Shown here piece after piece: positions 3,009 through 59,154 of a stretch of DNA of 64,000 nucleotides. The notes under the pieces are model-generated. The model did no database searches. It worked only from the letters and a program-made list of their open reading frames with translations, and was not told the DNA's origin. Source of the stretch: Propioniciclava coleopterorum (GTDB taxonomy: Bacteria > Actinomycetota > Actinomycetes > Propionibacteriales > Propionibacteriaceae); contig NZ_CP049865.1 in NCBI RefSeq assembly GCF_011393335.1, positions 2,374,722-2,438,721 of the forward strand, written 5' to 3'. The position numbers were made by a program, and so were the translations under genes. Each line of letters starts with the position of its first letter. Position 1 is the stretch's first letter.

Positions 3009-3230
3009 ATCGGCCTCGCAACCAGCGCCCCGGCGGCGGATTCCTCGTCGCCGCGCTGGTGCGGCGCGTGGCGTGCGCCTCGGGATCGTGGTGCTGGTCG
3101 TTGAGGAGCGTCATGTCCATGGTTCACGAAGCCTCGTCGAGCCCCCACGCGAAGGCCGCCCGCCGTGGCGCCGCGGCAGCAGCACGGGTGCGGGTGGGGC
3201 GTCGCGCTCGAGCGCACACCTGGGGCGGGG

Positions 3231-3276
3231 CACAAAAGTTCGACGGCCCCGCCGGACTCAGTCCGACGGGGCCGTC
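3231..3276 (-). terminator. Strong rho-independent terminator after tRNA-Glu
   Basis: A 16-bp stem (3242-3257 with 3261-3276, one mismatch at 3252/3266, loop TCA) is followed on the minus strand by GAACTTTTG. It sits 3 bp past the encoded CCA of tRNA-Glu. Confidence 0.88.
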
Positions 3277-3279
3277 ACC

Positions 3280-3355
3280 TGGCATCCCCAACGGGATTCG
3301 AACCCGTGTTGCCGCCGTGAAAGGGCGGAGTCCTGGGCCACTAGACGATGGGGAC
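3280..3355 (-). tRNA. tRNA-Glu(TTC)
   Basis: Cloverleaf on the minus strand: acceptor GTCCCCA/TGGGGAT, anticodon stem CCGCC/GGCGG with loop CTTTCAC (anticodon TTC), T-arm with TTCGAATC, discriminator G, encoded CCA at 3280-3282. The body is 73 nt. This tRNA also feeds the C5 heme pathway (hemA, hemL) encoded further along in the window. Confidence 0.96.
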
Positions 3356-3365
3356 AGGCGTGGAC

Positions 3366-3395
3366 AGCATAGGGCACGCCGGGCGCGCGCCCCAA
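3366..3395 (-). promoter_or_regulatory. Probable promoter of tRNA-Glu
   Basis: The minus strand carries TTGGGG (3390-3395), an 18-bp spacer and TATGCT (3366-3371), placing the start site a few bases from the tRNA-Glu 5' end at 3355. The -35 element is weak; the support is the repeated TATGCT and the spacing. Confidence 0.4.
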
Positions 3396-3414
3396 GTCCA
3401 CAGGGGGCGTCCCC

Positions 3415-3633
3415 TCAGGACTCCGGCCGCTCCCGGCGGGCGGCGTCCACGGTCGCGCGGGCGCCGTCGAGCCAGGCCTGGCAGCGGGCCGCGAGCTTCT
3501 CGCCCCGCTCCCACAGCGCCATCGACTCCGACAGCGGAACCTTGCCCGATTCCAGTTGCTGCACCACCTGCACCAACTGCTCGCGGGCGGCCTCGTAGCT
3601 GAGCTCCTGCTCGCCGGTGGGTGCCTGGGTCAT
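3415..3633 (-). CDS. xseB: Exodeoxyribonuclease VII small subunit
   Basis: A 72-residue all-helical protein with the XseB core: LSYEAAREQLVQVVQQLESG, PLSESMALWERGEKLAARC. XseB wraps around the helical arm of XseA in exonuclease VII, which degrades single-stranded DNA from both ends to oligonucleotides during repair. The start ATG overlaps the xseA stop by 4 bp (ATGA), so the two subunits are translationally coupled. Length is normal for the family. Confidence 0.95.
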   Translation of the reverse strand: MTQAPTGEQELSYEAAREQLVQVVQQLESGKVPLSESMALWERGEKLAARCQAWLDGARATVDAARRERPES

Positions 3634-4876
3634 GCGTCCTCCTCGGTGTCGGGATCGTGGTCATGCGGTTCGACGTCGACGACCGCGGCGGCGATGTCGC
3701 CGTCCATCAGCCGGGCGACGATGATCTCGTCGGGCTCCACCTGCTCGATGGAGGTCACGGTGCGGCCGTCGTCGGTGGTCAGGATGGCGTAGCCCCGCTG
3801 CAGCGTGGCCTGCGGCGACAGCGCCCGGATGCGCGCGATGGTGTGGCCCACGGCGTCCTGCTCGCGCTCGAGCGTCCGGGTGATGCCGCGGCGCAGGCGC
3901 CCGGCGAGGTCGTCCAGCCGCTCGGCCTGCAGCGCCAGCGCGCCGCCGGGGTCGCGCAGCACCGGTCGCGAGCGCAGGTCGTCGAGGCGCTGCTGCTCGG
4001 TGAGGACGCGGCGGGTGATCGCGCCGCGCAGCCGGCTGAGCCCGGTCGCGATGACCTGGGCCTCCGCGACGGCGTCCGGGACGACGAGCTTGGCCGCATC
4101 CGTGGGCGTGGACGCGCGGACGTCGGCGACCAGGTCGAGGATCGGGGTGTCGGTCTCGTGCCCGATCGCGGACACGACGGGGGTGCGGCAGTGGAACACC
4201 GCGCGGGCGAGGGTCTCGTCGCTGAAGGGGAGCAGGTCCTCCATGGAGCCTCCGCCGCGGGCGATGATGATCGTCTCGACGTGGTCGAGCCCGTCGAGGT
4301 GGCGCAACGCGGCCATCACCTGCTCGACGGTCTTCGGGCCCTGCACCAGCACGTGCGAGACCTCGACCCGGGCGGCCGGCCAACGCCGGGAGATGTGCTC
4401 GAGGACGTCGCGCTCGGCCGCCGAGTCCTTGCCGGTGATCAGGCCGATCGCGGCGGGCAGGAACGGCAGTCGCCGCTTGCGGTCGGGCTGAACAGCCCCT
4501 CGGCCTGCAGCGCCCGCTTGCGCTGCTCGAGGTGCGCCAGCAGCCGGCCCTCGCCGGAGGGGCGCAGGTCGCGGCACTCGAACGTCAGCGAGCCGCTGCC
4601 CTGGAACACGGTGGCGCGCACGTGGGCGGCGACGAGGGTGCCCTCGGTGAGCGGCCCGGCGGCGTCCAGGGTGGCCGTGGAGACCGACACCTGGACGCTG
4701 ACGTCGGCGAGCTTGTCGCGCAGCGTCAGGAAGTGGACGCTGTGGCCGGCGCGGCGCTTGAGCTGGACGATCTGCCCCTCCACCCAGACCGGCCCGGTGC
4801 GCTCGACCCAGCCCTTGAGGGCGGTGACCACGGCCCTCAGCGGCTGCGGGGATTCGGGAGAGCTGTCCAACGGCAC
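3630..4876 (-). CDS. xseA: Exodeoxyribonuclease VII large subunit, frameshifted
   Basis: XseA is the catalytic subunit of exonuclease VII. The N-terminal OB-fold part (about 135 residues: VWVEGQIVQLKRRAGHSVHF, LQAEGLF) is read from ATG 4876; the catalytic and coiled-coil part (IGLITGKDSAAERDV, HVLVQGPKTVEQV, IIIARGGGSMEDL, SAIGHETDTP, LQRGYAILTTDDG) is in another frame. Adding one base to the GGG run at 4485-4487 (CCC on the coding strand, after GLFSP) joins them into a ~415-residue protein of ordinary length. Catalytic-domain motifs are intact. As both halves are well conserved, a base-calling error is more likely than decay. It is followed by xseB with a 4-bp overlap. Confidence 0.92.
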
Positions 4877-11685: not shown

Positions 11686-12353
11686 GAGGTGTAGGCGTCA
11701 GCGCGCGAACGCAGCGGCGCGGTGATGGGGGACTGCGGCGTCTCGGGGGCGCGGTGCGGAAGAGCGGGGCTGGGGATGGCGGCGTACCGCGGGCCGACGT
11801 GCCGGATCGGGGCGTACCAGACGTCGAGGACGGTCAGGTCGCGGACGAGGTCCACCTCGTGCACGCTGATGCGGCGCACGGGCGCGCCGAGCCGGATCGA
11901 CACGGTCCGCTCGAGGAGGTCCGGGTCGAGGATGGCCTCGTCCAGCGTCAGCGTGATCGACGTGATCCGGCGGGCGACCTTGGGGTGGTCGGCGATCGTC
12001 ACGACGAGCAGGATCAGCGCGGACAGCGTCGGGGTGACCCACCACGCGAACGGCGCGAGGCCGCCCAGCAGGCCGAGCGCCAGCGCCGAGAAGTAGTAGG
12101 CGATCTCGCCCTGGCTGATCGCGTCGGACCGCAGGCGGATGATCGACAGCACGCCGAACAGGCCCAGCCCCAGGCCGACGCTCGCCTCGGTCGTTCCCAG
12201 AGCGAGCGTGACCGCCATGACCCCGACGTTCAGCGTCAGGAAGGCGAACATCAGATCGCGTCGATGGTGACGGGGGTAGTACAGGGCGACGGCGAGGATC
12301 GTGGCCGCGACGAGATCGGTCCCGACGGCCACCAGGCTGGCGAACGAAAGCAT
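11682..12353 (-). CDS. DUF4956 membrane protein
   Basis: About 223 residues with four or five membrane helices (VGTDLVAATILAVALYY, LMFAFLTLNVGVMAVTLAL, GLGLGLFGVLSIIRLRSD, YFSALALGLLGGLAPFAWWV) and a cytosolic C-terminal domain with SITLTLDEAI and VHEVDLVRD. The IRLRSD-AISQGEIAYYF junction is typical of DUF4956. The chosen ATG (12351-12353) opens the first helix; an upstream ATG would add an Arg/Cys-rich stretch. It is co-transcribed with the VTC-domain gene. Role unknown; an association with polyphosphate or cell-envelope phosphate handling is inference. Confidence 0.75.
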   Translation of the reverse strand: MLSFASLVAVGTDLVAATILAVALYYPRHHRRDLMFAFLTLNVGVMAVTLALGTTEASVGLGLGLFGVLSIIRLRSDAISQGEIAYYFSALALGLLGGLAPFAWWVTPTLSALILLVVTIADHPKVARRITSITLTLDEAILDPDLLERTVSIRLGAPVRRISVHEVDLVRDLTVLDVWYAPIRHVGPRYAAIPSPALPHRAPETPQSPITAPLRSRADAYTS

Positions 12354-16987: not shown

Positions 16988-18115
16988 TCAGGCGGCCACC
17001 GCGAACTCGGCGGCGTCGTGGCCGGCGCGCCGGGCGAGGGCGTCGGCAGCGGCGCGGAACGCCGGCTCGGCGCCGCGGGGCAGCGGACGGTCGGGCCGCA
17101 GCTCGACGCGGAACCGCCCGGGCCGCTCGGTGCGCTTCCACGCCCCGACCCGCCGCAGGTCCCAGATCGCAGGGCCGCCGCCGGACTCGCCGTACTTGGC
17201 GACCGAGTCCGCGGCGCCGGGCAGCGGCAGCACCGAATGGGTCAGGACGGCCTCGTCGAAGGTGGACAGCAGCCACGCCCCCGCGGCGCCGGTCTCCCCG
17301 GTCGGCCCGCTCGAGCGCGCGGACGGACGCCGCTCGTCGAGGGCGCGGGTGCCGGCCAACAGCTCGACGTCGTCCACGACCACGCGGGTGACGCCGTCGC
17401 CGAGCTCGCCGATCGCGGCCGCGATCTCGGTCCGGGTCAGGCGGGTCCAGCGCTGCAGGTCGGCGACCGCGACCGGCCCGTGCGAGGCGAAGAACCGCCC
17501 GACCAGCTCGGTGACCGCCTCCGCGCGGGGCCGCGGCGCGGCGGGCGGGAGGACGCTGTCGGCGAGGACGTAGGTGTGGCCGTTGAGGCCCGCGGGGTCC
17601 ACCGGCCCCGAACAGACGAGGCCCTCCAACTCGGCGATCAGGCACACGTGCGACACCTGCGCCCAGAACTCCGGGTGCGACCGGTCCAGGACGCCGGCGC
17701 CGACGAACGCCGCGCCCAGCTCCGCCCGGGTCCGCGGCCCCTCGGCGACCTGGGCGAGCAGGAAGTCCAGCCGCGGCGTCCGATCGGCGGGCTCGGCCAG
17801 CCCGAGCCTCCGGTGCCGCGCCGCCATCCCCGACAGCACCTTCGGGGAGGTGAGCGCGAGCAGCCAGCGGACGTCCTCGGCGGCGACGTGGTGCCAGGTC
17901 GGGCGCAGCACGTGGGTGCGCACGACGCGGCCGGCGTGCAGCGCGGCGGTCGCCTCGGCGGCGGTGGCCCGGGTGCGCTGCGCGAGCGAGTCGTGGGCCA
18001 GCGGCACGTCCTGGGACTGCACGGCCAGCGACTCCCGGACCGCGCTCACGGGGTCCGGCGCCGGCGTCCCGGTGAGGCGCTGCAGCGCGAACCGGATCTC
18101 CCACAGCTCGCGCAC
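16988..18115 (-). CDS. Winged-helix DNA glycosylase, AlkZ/YcaQ-like
   Basis: About 375 residues with three winged-helix segments of the AlkZ/YcaQ family: AVQSQDVPLAHDSLAQR near the start (the QSQ-type catalytic motif), THVLRPTWHHVAAEDVRWLL, then the later domains (VCSGPVDPAGLNGHTYVLAD, DLQRWTRLTRTEIAAAIGEL). Such enzymes unhook interstrand crosslinks or remove bulky alkyl bases; many actinobacterial members are self-resistance or general repair proteins. The start is uncertain: GTG 18113-18115 (VRELWEIRFAL) is chosen as the frame continues upstream without conserved sequence. It is divergent from the HAD gene. Confidence 0.8.
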   Translation of the reverse strand: MRELWEIRFALQRLTGTPAPDPVSAVRESLAVQSQDVPLAHDSLAQRTRATAAEATAALHAGRVVRTHVLRPTWHHVAAEDVRWLLALTSPKVLSGMAARHRRLGLAEPADRTPRLDFLLAQVAEGPRTRAELGAAFVGAGVLDRSHPEFWAQVSHVCLIAELEGLVCSGPVDPAGLNGHTYVLADSVLPPAAPRPRAEAVTELVGRFFASHGPVAVADLQRWTRLTRTEIAAAIGELGDGVTRVVVDDVELLAGTRALDERRPSARSSGPTGETGAAGAWLLSTFDEAVLTHSVLPLPGAADSVAKYGESGGGPAIWDLRRVGAWKRTERPGRFRVELRPDRPLPRGAEPAFRAAADALARRAGHDAAEFAVAA

Positions 18116-18202
18116 ATCCCTGACCCGCAGCCTAGGAGACGCCGGGGGAGGGGCGGGCACGGCCCCCTCCGGCGGCGCGCCGGCGGCCGCTAGCGTGGGG
18201 GT

Positions 18203-54271: not shown

Positions 54272-55345
54272 GTGGCACTCACCATCGGAATCGTCGGGCT
54301 CCCCAACGCGGGCAAGTCCACCCTGTTCAACGCGCTGACGCGCAACGACGTGCTCGCCGCGAACTACCCGTTCGCGACGATCGAGCCGAACGTGGGGGTG
54401 GTCGGAGTCCCCGACCCGCGCCTGGCGGGGCTGGCGAAGGTGTACGGCTCGGAGAAGATCATCCCCGCGACGGTCAGCTTCGTCGACATCGCCGGCATCG
54501 TGAAGGGCGCCTCCCAGGGCGAGGGCATGGGCAACGCGTTCCTGGCCAACATCCGCGAGGCGGACGCCATCTGCCAGGTCACGCGCGTCTTCGAGGACGC
54601 CGACGTGACGCACGTCGACGGCTCGGTGAACCCCGGCAACGACATCGACACCGTGACGACCGAGCTGATCCTGGCCGACCTGCAGACGCTGGAGAAGTCC
54701 ATCGTCCGGGTCGAGAAGGAGGCGCGCATCAAGAAGGAGGCGCGCCCCAAGCTCGAGGCGATGCAGGCCGCGATCGAGGTGCTGAACTCCGGCCGGACGG
54801 TGTTCGCCTCCGGCATGGACATCGCCGAGCTGAAGGACCTGTTCCTGCTGACGGCCAAGCCGTTCATCTACGTGTTCAACTGCGACCAGGACGAGCTGGC
54901 CAACGAGGCCCTGCAGGAGCGGATGAGCGAGCTGGTCGCCCCCGCCGAGGCGGTGTTCCTGGACGCCAAGTTCGAGTCCGAGCTGGTCGAGATGGACGAG
55001 GACGAGGCACGCGACTTCCTGGCGGAGATGGGCGTCGAGGAGCCCGGCCTGGACAAGCTGGCCCGCGCCGGTTACGAGACGCTGGGCCTGCAGAGCTACC
55101 TGACCGGCGGCCCCAAGGAGGCCCGCGCCTGGACGATCCGCAAGGGCGCCACCGCCCCCGAGGCCGCCGGCGTCATCCACACCGACTTCCAGAAGGGCTT
55201 CATCAAGGCCCAGATCGTCTCGTTCGACGACCTGATCTCGCTGGGCTCGGAGGCCGCGGTGAAGTCCGCGGGGAAGATGCGCCTGGAGGGCAAGGACTAC
55301 GTGATGGCCGACGGTGACGTGGTGGAGTTTAGATTCAACGTCTGA
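54272..55345 (+). CDS. ychF: Redox-regulated ribosome-binding ATPase YchF (Obg family)
   Basis: 357 residues. G1 GLPNAGKSTLFNAL, DIAGIVKGASQGEGMGN (G3) and the atypical FNCDQDEL instead of NKxD mark YchF, which prefers ATP. A TGS-type C-terminal domain ends VVEFRFNV. GTG 54272-54274 opens the conserved IGIVGLPNAG. The final codons (TTT AGA) are AT-rich and rare here, unlike the rest of the gene, and a GC-rich second copy of the same 3' end lies at 55663-55688. Confidence 0.96.
   Translation: MALTIGIVGLPNAGKSTLFNALTRNDVLAANYPFATIEPNVGVVGVPDPRLAGLAKVYGSEKIIPATVSFVDIAGIVKGASQGEGMGNAFLANIREADAICQVTRVFEDADVTHVDGSVNPGNDIDTVTTELILADLQTLEKSIVRVEKEARIKKEARPKLEAMQAAIEVLNSGRTVFASGMDIAELKDLFLLTAKPFIYVFNCDQDELANEALQERMSELVAPAEAVFLDAKFESELVEMDEDEARDFLAEMGVEEPGLDKLARAGYETLGLQSYLTGGPKEARAWTIRKGATAPEAAGVIHTDFQKGFIKAQIVSFDDLISLGSEAAVKSAGKMRLEGKDYVMADGDVVEFRFNV
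55317..55344 (+). other. Putative attachment-site copy A (3' end of ychF)
   Basis: The last codons of ychF plus stop, ACGTGGTGGAGTTTAGATTC and following. It matches 55663-55688 at about 21 of 26 positions, and the mismatches are confined to codon-silent or rare-codon changes such as TTTAGA against TTCCGG. Confidence 0.5.
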
Positions 55346-55361
55346 CCTCGATCAGGTCAGA
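55341..55361 (+). terminator. Weak hairpin after ychF
   Basis: TCTGACCT (55341-55348) pairs with AGGTCAGA (55354-55361) over a five-base loop, followed by ATAGATTT. It may end the ychF transcript, or be part of an integrase-binding dyad. Confidence 0.35.
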
Positions 55362-55802
55362 ATAGATTTCTGACCCACAGTGTTGATGCTGTAGCCTTTC
55401 GTTTCAACGTCTGTGTTTGCGTTCGAGATGCGCTTCTCAGTTCGGAGCTGCACTTTGTGCGGCGTGAACATCGAGTCGGCTGAAACCAGGAGAAGCACAT
55501 GCAAGCGCGAGTAATCGGTTCCGAGCAGTCGATGGAACGGTGGCCTCCTGGTATCGCAATGCTGACCGCGTGCGTGGACTTGTTCGGTTGATCCGTTCCA
55601 GGACGCTCTCCGGTGTCGCCGAGAGTGAGTCCTCGCCGCCGCTGATGGTTCTCCGTTCCGGAACGTGGTCGAGTTCCGGTTCAACGTCCAGCGTTTGTTG
55701 ACGCAGCGCGTACACGTCTTCTCGTGATCAGATTACTCGGGAGCGGATTCCGATGAGACTGAACTGATCGAGCCCATCCACCCGGAGAGACCTTGATCGA
55801 TC
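55346..55802. other. Low-GC intergenic island segment with no convincing gene
   Basis: 457 bp, distinctly lower in GC than flanking DNA. Short open frames exist on both strands, including one with AGGAGAAGC before ATG 55499, but none shows a family pattern. It contains a short copy of the ychF-end motif (TTCAACGTCTG, 55403-55413) and the longer copy at 55663-55688. Confidence 0.6.
55663..55688 (+). other. Putative attachment-site copy B (displaced original ychF 3' end)
   Basis: ACGTGGTCGAGTTCCGGTTC... encodes VVEFRFNV with the GC-rich codons expected for this genome (TTC CGG TTC AAC GTC), but it is not attached to any gene and has no stop directly after it. This is what is left behind when an element recombines into the end of a gene and supplies its own copy of the end. 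Confidence 0.6.
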
Positions 55803-56336
55803 TCAATAGGGATAGCCGTACCGAATGAGGAGAACGATCGCCGACGCCAGTGAATAGATCAAGAACGTGACGCCGAGCCAGCAGCAAGCCAATCGACTTG
55901 TCTCATACTCGGCTCGCTTCAGGCGCGGAACCATGAGCGCGAGGCCAGTCACTTGGACCGCGGCGAGTCCCAAGTACGACCAATCCTTGAACACCCACGC
56001 CAGGGGCGCAAAATGCACAGCGACACACAGTGCGATCCACCAGCCAAACCACCTGTATCGATGTCGGATCTTCAAGAAGATTGCGCCGGCGCCGATGAAG
56101 ACGCTCATGACGATGAAGATGGCTCCAAAGACCCACCAGTTGCCGTCGTCCAGGGCGCTTGGCGTGTTCCAGTTGCGGCCGACGAGGACTCCAAATGTCG
56201 CGGCAATGATCAACCCGACCGAAGCTCCGACCCACTGTGGAAGTCGAGATTTGGGCGCAGAGTCCTCCTGCGCCATAGCGAACCACACGCACGCCATGAC
56301 TCCGAACAGGGTAATTGCAAATGCCTGATCTCGCAT
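55803..56336 (-). CDS. Multi-helix membrane protein of unknown family in the lower-GC segment
   Basis: About 177 residues from ATG 56334-56336 (a longer start at 56429 is possible). Five hydrophobic helices: FAITLFGVMACVWFAMA, VGASVGLIIAATFGVLV, VFGAIFIVMSVFIGAGAIFL, YRWFGWWIALCVAVHFAPLA and a last one near SLASAIVLLIRYGY. Base composition and codons are less GC-rich than in neighbouring genes, which suggests recent acquisition. No family recognised. Confidence 0.55.
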   Translation of the reverse strand: MRDQAFAITLFGVMACVWFAMAQEDSAPKSRLPQWVGASVGLIIAATFGVLVGRNWNTPSALDDGNWWVFGAIFIVMSVFIGAGAIFLKIRHRYRWFGWWIALCVAVHFAPLAWVFKDWSYLGLAAVQVTGLALMVPRLKRAEYETSRLACCWLGVTFLIYSLASAIVLLIRYGYPY

Positions 56337-56771
56337 GAATTCGGTGATCAACGTTCTCTGTCCGTTCGTCGGTGCGCCTGTACCACATGGCTGGGTTCCA
56401 CGAGGGTGCGGTGAGCAACAGATACTCACGACACACTACCGGCCGTAGCGTGGCCGGTTCCCTGTCAACGCTGGCGCTCATCCTCTGCAGTGCAGTCCCC
56501 TCGCGCCGGCGCTCGAAGGCTGGTCGCCTCGTACCGATATCTGTCTTGGCGCTCTCCGTCGATGAGGTTCCGCGTGCCCTGTGAGCAGAGCGTGGTCGGC
56601 GTCACTCTGGACGAGCTCGACGCGGTTGCGCGCGGTACCTCGATGCCGTCAGCGGTTTCTCTGCGCTCCGGTAGTGCCGGGCGCTCGGTGCGGTGACCGG
56701 CGTCGCGCCCGTCGGGGGCGCGGGACTTGGTTGGCGCTGCCGCAGTGGTCGCCACCATGCACCGTCCGAAG
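56337..56771. other. Non-coding stretch between the membrane protein gene and the iron box
   Basis: No supportable gene. An inverted repeat ACCGGCC/GGCCGGT lies at about 56443-56460. GC rises back towards the genome level after ~56480. Small open frames here overlap on both strands and look like noise. Confidence 0.5.
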
Positions 56772-56790
56772 TAAGGATAGGCTTACCTTA
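56772..56790 (+). promoter_or_regulatory. DtxR/IdeR-type iron box
   Basis: TAAGGATAGGCTTACCTTA, a 19-bp near-palindrome matching the DtxR/IdeR consensus TTAGGTTAGGCTAACCTAA at most positions. Its last base is the A of the start codon at 56790, so iron-loaded repressor would cover the start codon. Confidence 0.88.
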
Positions 56791-57611
56791 TGAGTCGGAA
56801 GAAGAACACGCCGCCCGACCGGCGGTTCATGGTGGCGCACGTCGTTCGCGTCGAGCGGGTGAGCCCGAACTTCGTCCGGGTGACCCTGGGTGGCCTGGAC
56901 GGGCTCGAAGCCTGGGGCGCCGACCACTGGTGCTGACTGTTCTTCACGCGCGACGGGCAGGACGCGCTGAAGCTGCCCACGAGCACCACCGAGCTGGGCT
57001 GGTACCTGCAGTATCTGGCGACGCCGAAGGCGAAGCGACCCTGGGTGCGCGCGTACACGCTGCGGGACTGCAGGCCCGAGGTCGGGGAGGTGGACATCGA
57101 CTTCGTCATCCACGGGCATGACGGTGGGCCCATCGGGCCGGGGACGCGGTTCGCGCTCAGTGCGCGCCCGGGCGATCGGGTCGGGTTCCTCGACCAGGGG
57201 TCCGCTTTCACCCCCGATCACCCCCACGACTGGACGCTGCTGGTGGGCGACGAGACCGCTCTGCCGGCGATCGCGGGCATCTGCCGCGCGCTCCCCGAGG
57301 ACGCACGGGGGATCGCGGTCGTCGAGGTCCCCGCCGCCGAGGATCGCCAGGACTTCCCGGCGCCCGCCGACATGCAGGTCGTCTGGGTGGTGCGAGACGA
57401 GTCGGGCCGACCCGACGAGCGGCCGGGCGAGCTCGCGCTCCGGACGCTGACCTCGGCGGCCCTGCCCGACGGTGACGTGCACGCCCACGCCATCGGCGAG
57501 TCCGCGCTGGCGACGGGAGCGCGCCGCCACCTGGTGCAGGAACGAGGGGTGCCGAAGCGCAACGTCGACTTCGTCGGGTACTGGCGGCACGGCCGGCCGG
57601 CGACCGGCTGA
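56790..57611 (+). pseudogene. Siderophore-interacting protein (ferric-siderophore reductase), interrupted by in-frame TGA
   Basis: Reading from ATG 56790 gives a SIP-family flavin reductase of ~273 codons: RFMVAHVVRVERVSPNFVRV, then DHWC, a TGA at 56934-56936 (codon 49), LFFTRDGQDALK, PWVRAYTLRDC (the RxYT FAD motif), HGHDGGPIGPG, LLVGDETALPAIAGI and YWRHG at the end. Everything past the TGA stays in the same frame and is conserved, so a single CGA-to-TGA change would explain it. A later GTG (57045) could give a truncated product lacking the first beta-barrel strands. Family role: iron release from siderophores. The iron box fits that. Confidence 0.88.
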
Positions 57612-58310: not shown

Positions 58311-58898
58311 TCACCGCAGAGCGAGGGCGTTCTGGATGTAGGCGTCCTCGATGCCCTGCGACGCGGCGAGGTCGCGGAAGAGCGCGATCGAGGCCGGATG
58401 AAGCTCGTAGGTGTCGTCGTAGAGCTCGTCGCCGCGTTGCTCCGACACCTCGAGCCACGCGATCGACAGCTTCAGCAAGCCGCTGATGTCACGCGCGATC
58501 GGCTGCGGGTCCCAGTAGCCCATCCCCTGCACGGCGAAGAACACCTCGCCGTCGACCGACGACGGATCCAGCATGATCGGGTCGCCGCCGCTGTCAGCGA
58601 TGACCAGCATGTTCGGCGGCCAGTCCGCGGCGGGGTCGCCCGTGCGTCCGTCGGTCGCGTAGCCGACCTGCTGACCATCCAAACCGGCGAAGGGATAGAA
58701 GGTGATGTCCTGCCAGATGCTCTCCACAACCGCATCGGCCGGGTTGTGCCGGGTGTAGAACTCACGGGCGTCCGCGCGAGCGAAGCGCCTCTCGACCTGA
58801 TCCGGATCGGTGTCCGCAAGGAACTGAGGAAGCCCGTGGAACTCGACGGCGGTGGTGTTCGCCGTCAGTTCCACGAGGCGCGTGATCAGTTGTTCCAC
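58311..58898 (-). CDS. SMI1/KNR4 (SUKH)-like protein, possible immunity protein
   Basis: About 195 residues from GTG 58896-58898 (AGGAA six bases upstream). The core (WPPNMLVIADSGGDPIMLDP, GEVFFAVQGMGYWDP, ARDISGLLKLSIAWLEVSE) has the layout of SUKH-type proteins, which often neutralise toxins of contact-dependent or polymorphic systems. No toxin gene is adjacent. Family assignment by pattern only. Confidence 0.55.
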   Translation of the reverse strand: MEQLITRLVELTANTTAVEFHGLPQFLADTDPDQVERRFARADAREFYTRHNPADAVVESIWQDITFYPFAGLDGQQVGYATDGRTGDPAADWPPNMLVIADSGGDPIMLDPSSVDGEVFFAVQGMGYWDPQPIARDISGLLKLSIAWLEVSEQRGDELYDDTYELHPASIALFRDLAASQGIEDAYIQNALALR

Positions 58899-59154
58899 GA
58901 GGGTTCCTGTCTGTGAGGGGGGCTGCCCACGGTACGGGGCTCCCGGCTGTGGTCTGGTGATGGTCATTATCGCGTGCCGAAGATCTGCGGACCGGAGCCG
59001 ACCCGTGTGCGCCGGAGCGGCTGGTGGCCGCCGCCGACGGATGCCCACGCTGGGCGCGTCCGGGATGCGGACGCGTCGTGTCGGGTGGTCGTCGGAGACC
59101 GCGAGGATGACGGCAGGCGCGGGCACCCCCGCTCCGCCGCCTGAGAGGAGCACC

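Follow-up and report, generated by a model that had tools for sequence, protein, structure and literature searches.

The end of ychF in the DNA studied here is best explained as carrying what erosion has left of at least three mobile units that large serine recombinases inserted in turn into the 3' end of the gene, approximately seven codons before the stop. We give this reading a probability of roughly 0.87. The sites behind ychF all face in the same direction, both empty and occupied sites are found within one genus, a recombinase lies beside ychF, and homology between cassettes of different genera starts at the site.

The ychF terminus and the DNA behind it

The window, meaning the whole 64 kb stretch that was analyzed, comes from a 3.67 Mb single-contig genome (G000:C1:2374722-2438721; G numbers denote genomes throughout). 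In it, ychF terminates with GTG GAG TTT AGA TTC AAC GTC TGA (55322-55345). A first-pass annotation of this DNA had remarked that TTT AGA is foreign to the codon usage of ychF, and codon counts agree. Outside the tail, phenylalanine is always encoded by TTC (15/15) and arginine by CGC or CGG (14/14). Because the rest of the gene uses only these codons, TTT and AGA are restricted to its tail. The annotation had also described a second copy of the gene end 346 bp further on. Both the distance between the two starts and the G+C-rich character of this copy, GTC GAG TTC CGG TTC AAC GTC (GTCGAGTTCCGGTTCAACGTC, 55668-55688), were confirmed, but a third, weaker copy, TTTCGTTTCAACGTCTG, within 55391-55413 had been missed. 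There are thus three copies of the ychF 3' end in one direction within 366 bp, starting at 55322, 55391, and 55668. The features of this region are as follows.

54272..55345, plus strand: ychF, 357 aa, the target gene; last codons TTT AGA TTC AAC GTC TGA read as element-derived
55322..55341, plus strand: site 1, ychF/element junction (attL-like), from the pattern and site models
55346..55390, no strand: remnant of 45 bp between sites 1 and 2, assigned by position
55391..55410, plus strand: site 2, degenerate copy of the ychF end, weak (model E=0.1)
55411..55657, no strand: remnant separating sites 2 and 3, with final bases similar to the right end of an element in G057
55668..55687, plus strand: site 3, element-element junction, with left arm ccggaacgtg and right arm of the higBA-cassette type
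55688..55723, plus strand: promoter-like arm of a higBA cassette (ccagcgtttgttgacgc...), by sequence comparison with higBA cassettes
55724..55756, plus strand: remnant of a higB start; GTG at 55724, VIRLLGSGFR and then a stop, matching HigB starts VIRSFG...
55754..55800, plus strand: remnant of a higA start; reads TELIEPIHPE, like HigA starts (D)LIEPIHPGE; an internal deletion connects it to higB
55803..56429, minus strand: ORF of 208 aa with hydrophobic stretches, no Pfam match, relatives in G065 and G027

A pattern of 17 bases that allowed up to two mismatches was expected 0.01 times in the window (the maximum of 100 shuffles was 1) and was observed four times, three of these behind ychF. 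We take the fourth match (27832, minus strand, two mismatches) to be due to chance. A strict junction pattern gave 23 matches in 20 of the 391 genomes of the order and none in a backward control. On the ychF contig and the same strand, 0-27.4 kb downstream of the gene, lay 21 of the 23; the remaining two, in G016 and G022, fall on different contigs of draft genomes. The core is short, as would suit copies that arose by chance or that belong to a dispersed short repeat unrelated to ychF, but with so low an expected number and with the strict matches gathered in the neighborhood of ychF we consider such an origin extremely improbable.

The G+C content is 0.57-0.59 in 500-base windows over 55250-56499 versus approximately 0.66-0.76 around them. 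The first-pass description of a small, low-G+C remnant without an integrase holds for base composition and for the absence of a ychF-type recombinase, but not for extent, since foreign DNA continues past 55668 as a decayed higBA cassette. The scar is accordingly a remnant of more than one insertion. What is elsewhere a gene for a HigB-like toxin beside one for an HTH antitoxin is reduced in the window to traces of the two starts. BLAST against a cassette of G057 gave two colinear blocks, 3021-3133 (E=1.7e-11, with the core) and 3381-3428 (E=4.6e-6, without the core), and 247 bases of G057 (3134-3380) are therefore absent from the window. A higBA profile search of the window gave nothing significant (best E=0.27); the evidence for homology of the putative higBA relic comes from pairwise BLAST and the relic peptides. 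The end of the preceding remnant together with site 3 resembles G057 4189-4253 (66 bases at 84.8%).

The idea that elements insert at the ychF 3' end and restore the gene with a copy of their own was already in the first-pass annotation, and this core of it stands. It had taken the copy at 55668, however, for the displaced old end of ychF, as would be the case if one element had inserted and then shrunk. The G+C-rich composition of that copy, its VVEFRFNV-like residues, and its distance of 346 bp are what such a history would leave. Against it, the copy is flanked on the right by promoter DNA and the opening codons of a higBA cassette, a start present at many other junctions, its left arm ccggaacgtg is of the element type and not of the ychF type cggtgacgtg, and a third copy sits between it and the end of ychF. 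We regard a single shrunken element as quite unlikely and favor successive insertion of several units.

At E<=1e-60, neither the window nor the rest of its genome yielded a ychF-type recombinase. Over 29 kb downstream of ychF, the site models recognized no further ychF-end site, and a native right end was therefore not found in the window genome. The 208-aa ORF has relatives in G065 (39.6% alike), directly after ychF, and in G027 (37.3% alike), 14 kb downstream; because of these it may be cargo.

Two further observations concern the DNA beyond this ORF. A siderophore-interaction-like ORF (56791-57611) has an in-frame TGA near its start (56934-56936), where the relative in G021 is open, and the gene looks broken in the window genome. 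The stretches 56771-57611 (84.6%) and 58311-59003 (90.8%) are like DNA downstream of ychF in G021, which belongs to another genus, and occur there in the same order. This reflects either a shared neighborhood or a shared transfer.

Empty and occupied sites in congeners

Among the congeners, G001, G004, G007, G008, G010, and G011 have altered ychF ends, and G003, G005, and G012 end ychF directly with the G+C-rich GAGTTCCGCTTCAACGT. That relatives without the segment would end the gene in this way, that the interval after ychF would vary in size among relatives, and that integrases would adjoin ychF in some of them had all been anticipated by the first-pass annotation, and all were observed. The DNA after ychF in G003 matches G007 only beyond the displaced copy at 11986 (82.6% over 828 bases), and relative to the empty site of G003 the insert in G007 is 10.9 kb. 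The distance from ychF to a block common to several congeners ranges from approximately 0.9 kb (G003) through 6.3 kb (G011), 13.6 kb (G007), and 17.7 kb (G004) to 24.1 kb in the window genome, where the block that follows ychF in G003 begins at C1:2454209.

We rejected the possibility that the whole 24.1 kb in the window genome is an insertion. Most of the DNA between resembles ordinary chromosome and includes recQ-like, BCCT-like, and UvrA-like genes (named by eye). Thus, not all of it is inserted, and rearrangement is as likely.

Arrays of sites across the family

We matched ychF in 180 of 198 family genomes and analyzed the regions of 59 relatives and the window genome. These were a non-random draw comprising all usable congeners followed by other complete or high-scoring genomes; G006, in which ychF runs off the contig, was dropped, and G009 gave no match. 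The site models recognized 112 sites in the 60 regions, with at least two sites in 29 regions, at least three in 11, and eight in G058; the remaining 31 had fewer than two recognized sites. These counts are partly circular because the model seeds came from the same regions, and they are low estimates because the models miss tails that do not encode RFNV. Strand, reversed sequence, and pattern searches served as controls. At E<0.01 the core model gave 99 matches and the longer model 93, with none on the minus strand and none in reversed sequence. The 29 regions with two or more sites thus hold direct-repeat att sites, including multiple right-end sites, with no inverted copy at this threshold. 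At E<=1 the longer model matched the minus strand six times and the core model once, the strongest of these (E=0.01) overlapping a site on the plus strand; in reversed sequence the core model matched once.

Most units between sites are small. Forty-nine of the 53 inter-site intervals (median 1476 bases, or ~1.5 kb) contained no relative of the ychF-type recombinases in a search based on the seven members of alignment A1. A displaced site was present within the stretch in 26 of 45 genomes with altered tails versus 3 of 15 with native-type tails (Fisher one-sided p=0.011), leaving 19 of the 45 altered tails with no displaced site in the stretch. When uncut regions were compared, homology started no more than 14 bases from the start of the site in all seven pairs (from different genera, plus G003/G007), and in most of these the site adjoins ychF in one genome and lies deep in an array in the other. 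For example, G002 and G082, which belong to different genera, are 96.4% identical over 532 bases from the site, versus 81.0% for their ychF genes.

The C-terminus of the protein itself also varies. The conserved FRFNV gives way to other residues after VEF(R) in G026, G029, G030, G032, G038, G043, G082, G084, G100, and others.

A large serine recombinase at the site

A 551-aa large serine recombinase adjoins ychF in G008 and has relatives in G007 (462 aa) and G100 (518 aa); a Resolvase N-terminal domain and a Recombinase domain were found in all three relatives scanned. Relatives at E<=1e-60 occur in 11 of 195 family genomes. Ten of these recombinases lie downstream of ychF at distances of up to approximately 11 kb; the eleventh (G027) is a fragment of 124 residues on another contig. 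In G002, the oriented positions 17036-18139, beside a site at 18181, begin like a recombinase (MSAEPRRAAVYMRISQDRE) and soon depart from the family; this is probably a broken copy at a right end.

The set of named recombinase loci comprises the best 80 of 129 that were confirmed, two of which (L158 and L159) share one contig. In 51 of these best 80, ychF is in the same stretch: the recombinase gene (int) lies 8-118 bases after ychF in 22, 1.1-8.7 kb after it in 20, and in the opposite sense 5.0-9.2 kb downstream in 9. A ychF-end-like site lies within 200 bases of the recombinase in 14 of the other 29 and farther away in 4, so that 11 of the best 80 have neither, several of them at contig ends. 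The genera include Corynebacterium, Kocuria, Cutibacterium, Actinotignum, Varibaculum, Schaalia, Rothia, Gordonia, and Nocardia. Recombinases that are 92-96% identical over matched residues (L119, L120, L118, L121, L122, L123, L177) span Corynebacterium, Cutibacterium, Kocuria, Dietzia, and Ornithinimicrobium, and this identity across genera suggests recent transfer between families.

On viral contigs, 9 of 12 recombinase loci at >=36% identity had an adjacent ychF-type core, versus 0 of 46 below this (model matches up to E=0.5), a count that leaves out 22 of 80 loci in which fewer than 200 bases separate the recombinase start from the stretch end. A plain text test gave 8 of 12 and 0 of 46, and control stretches gave 0 of 10 and 0 of 45. 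The target therefore follows recombinase relatedness. A DNA scan of the viral contigs for the strict junction pattern gave no matches. Judged by these comparisons, the ychF 3' end is a predicted docking site common to related phages and mobile islands in many other actinobacteria.

Homologous recombination or natural gene conversion between copies of the ychF end might instead have moved the array, with the serine recombinases only as passengers. The absence of a recombinase from most units (49 of 53 intervals) and from all but 11 of 195 genomes is in line with this. However, recombinases are at the site in 51 of the best 80 named loci, the core on viral contigs adjoins a recombinase only among close relatives, and the common cores of approximately 20 bases are short for homologous recombination. 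We thus hold recombination between copies to be very unlikely as the driving process and retain insertion by serine recombinases.

Cargo

A higBA module lies approximately 56 bases after the site start at 22 of the 112 sites; 21 of these modules are distinct and several are broken. Cargo was named with Pfam or PADLOC in the few elements that were annotated. In one cassette of G026, Pfam recognized the HigBA pair (PF05015, E=2.2e-14; HTH_3, E=6.6e-8), and this genome also carries a protein matching Aminoglyc_resit and a DDE transposase. Other cargo comprises Abi_2/AbiD in G025, GmrSD_N/HEC-05 in G041, a heavy-metal-type P-ATPase in G041 and L120, a TIR protein and a caspase-like protease in G008, type I restriction-modification with ArdA in L119, and a type III methylase, a ThsB-type TIR protein, and a relaxase in L120. 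The last of these loci, from Cutibacterium namnetense, combines int with the relaxase (PF03432, E=1.2e-11), the pairing by which integrative and mobilizable elements are recognized; a relaxase was seen in this one annotated element only. Neither the 208-aa ORF nor six other scanned proteins had a Pfam match.

Proposed course of insertion and decay

We propose that large serine recombinases of phages and integrative islands recognize a core of approximately (ACGTG)GTSGAGTTC(CG) in the last codons of ychF. Insertion most likely takes place within GTSGAGTTC(CG), because bases to the left are constant and bases to the right vary between genomes. A circle would insert at the core in one direction and ychF would receive a 3' end supplied by the element, a new tail that would often restore FRFNV and sometimes replace it. 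Later elements could insert at either junction, since both keep the core, and head-to-tail arrays would result. Units with no recombinase of their own would presumably have been moved by one supplied in trans or have been stranded, and deletions would then wear the array down. Catalysis, mobilization in trans, and the exact crossover point are inferred. In scar-free strains of the window species, ychF would be expected to end with GAGTTCCGSTTCAACGT followed by the native flank.

A locus of this kind would provide a precise address at which mobile defense genes and other cargo gather, in a phylum that includes bacteria of skin, gut, and soil, and its short core can be searched for in any genome. 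The arrays allow a direct test of whether small cassettes without recombinases are moved in trans. The integrase family, with its predictable target, could serve genetics in those actinobacteria for which tools are scarce. The altered YchF tails, in which FRFNV is replaced in many relatives, raise the question of an effect on the protein.

Comparison with known systems

The first-pass annotation had suggested that the site is under-described, and this appears to be so. Searches of an open-access library, which leaves out subscription papers and most supplements, gave no ychF 3'-end site in actinobacteria; this is no proof of absence. None is named in passages of PMC1796617, PMC12884075, PMC3218068, and PMC10654092. 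The only site near ychF that these searches gave is in pneumococcus, where, according to PMC8637289 and PMC10383233, prophages adjoin ychF at an upstream, intergenic site and not at the 3' coding end used by the arrays described here.

The large serine integrases of actinobacteriophages are like the ychF type in having Resolvase and Recombinase domains. Phage relatives occur in Microbacterium, Mycobacterium, and Streptomyces phages (Percival, 33.7% over 93%; UtzChips, 43.1% over 85%), but among viral relatives only the closer ones had a ychF-type core next to them.

SCC elements of staphylococci and ECC elements of enterococci, which insert at rlmH, resemble the ychF arrays in their use of large serine recombinases and of the 3' region of a conserved housekeeping gene. 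As described in PMC6222049, they also share att repeats in one direction, several attR copies with remnants, and variable cargo. In contrast, the target here is ychF, the hosts are Actinomycetota, and the units are mostly ~1.5 kb, many of them starting with higBA. The ychF recombinases, compared with each other and with phages only, are one-gene integrases of the phage type instead of a ccrAB pair. Because insertion is in ychF and not rlmH, we do not file the system as SCC or ECC.

The ychF arrays also resemble chromosomal integrons in that small units, many with toxin-antitoxin modules, are arranged head to tail in one direction. Chromosomal integrons contain many units with such modules and use folded attC sites and a tyrosine integrase. 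A crude scan of 21 stretches gave no match to a tyrosine-recombinase motif. Unlike integrons, the ychF arrays have serine recombinases and, at the end of a gene, a double-strand-like core. We tentatively suggest, at somewhat less than even odds, that the ychF 3' end serves as a cassette-chromosome locus throughout the Actinomycetota. One core would be common to phages, mobilizable defense islands, and recombinase-less cassettes of one to a few genes headed by toxin-antitoxin modules, and a serine recombinase acting in trans would gather the cassettes into arrays, while the last residues of an essential-type translation ATPase are swapped. Such a locus would be the serine-recombinase counterpart of the integron.
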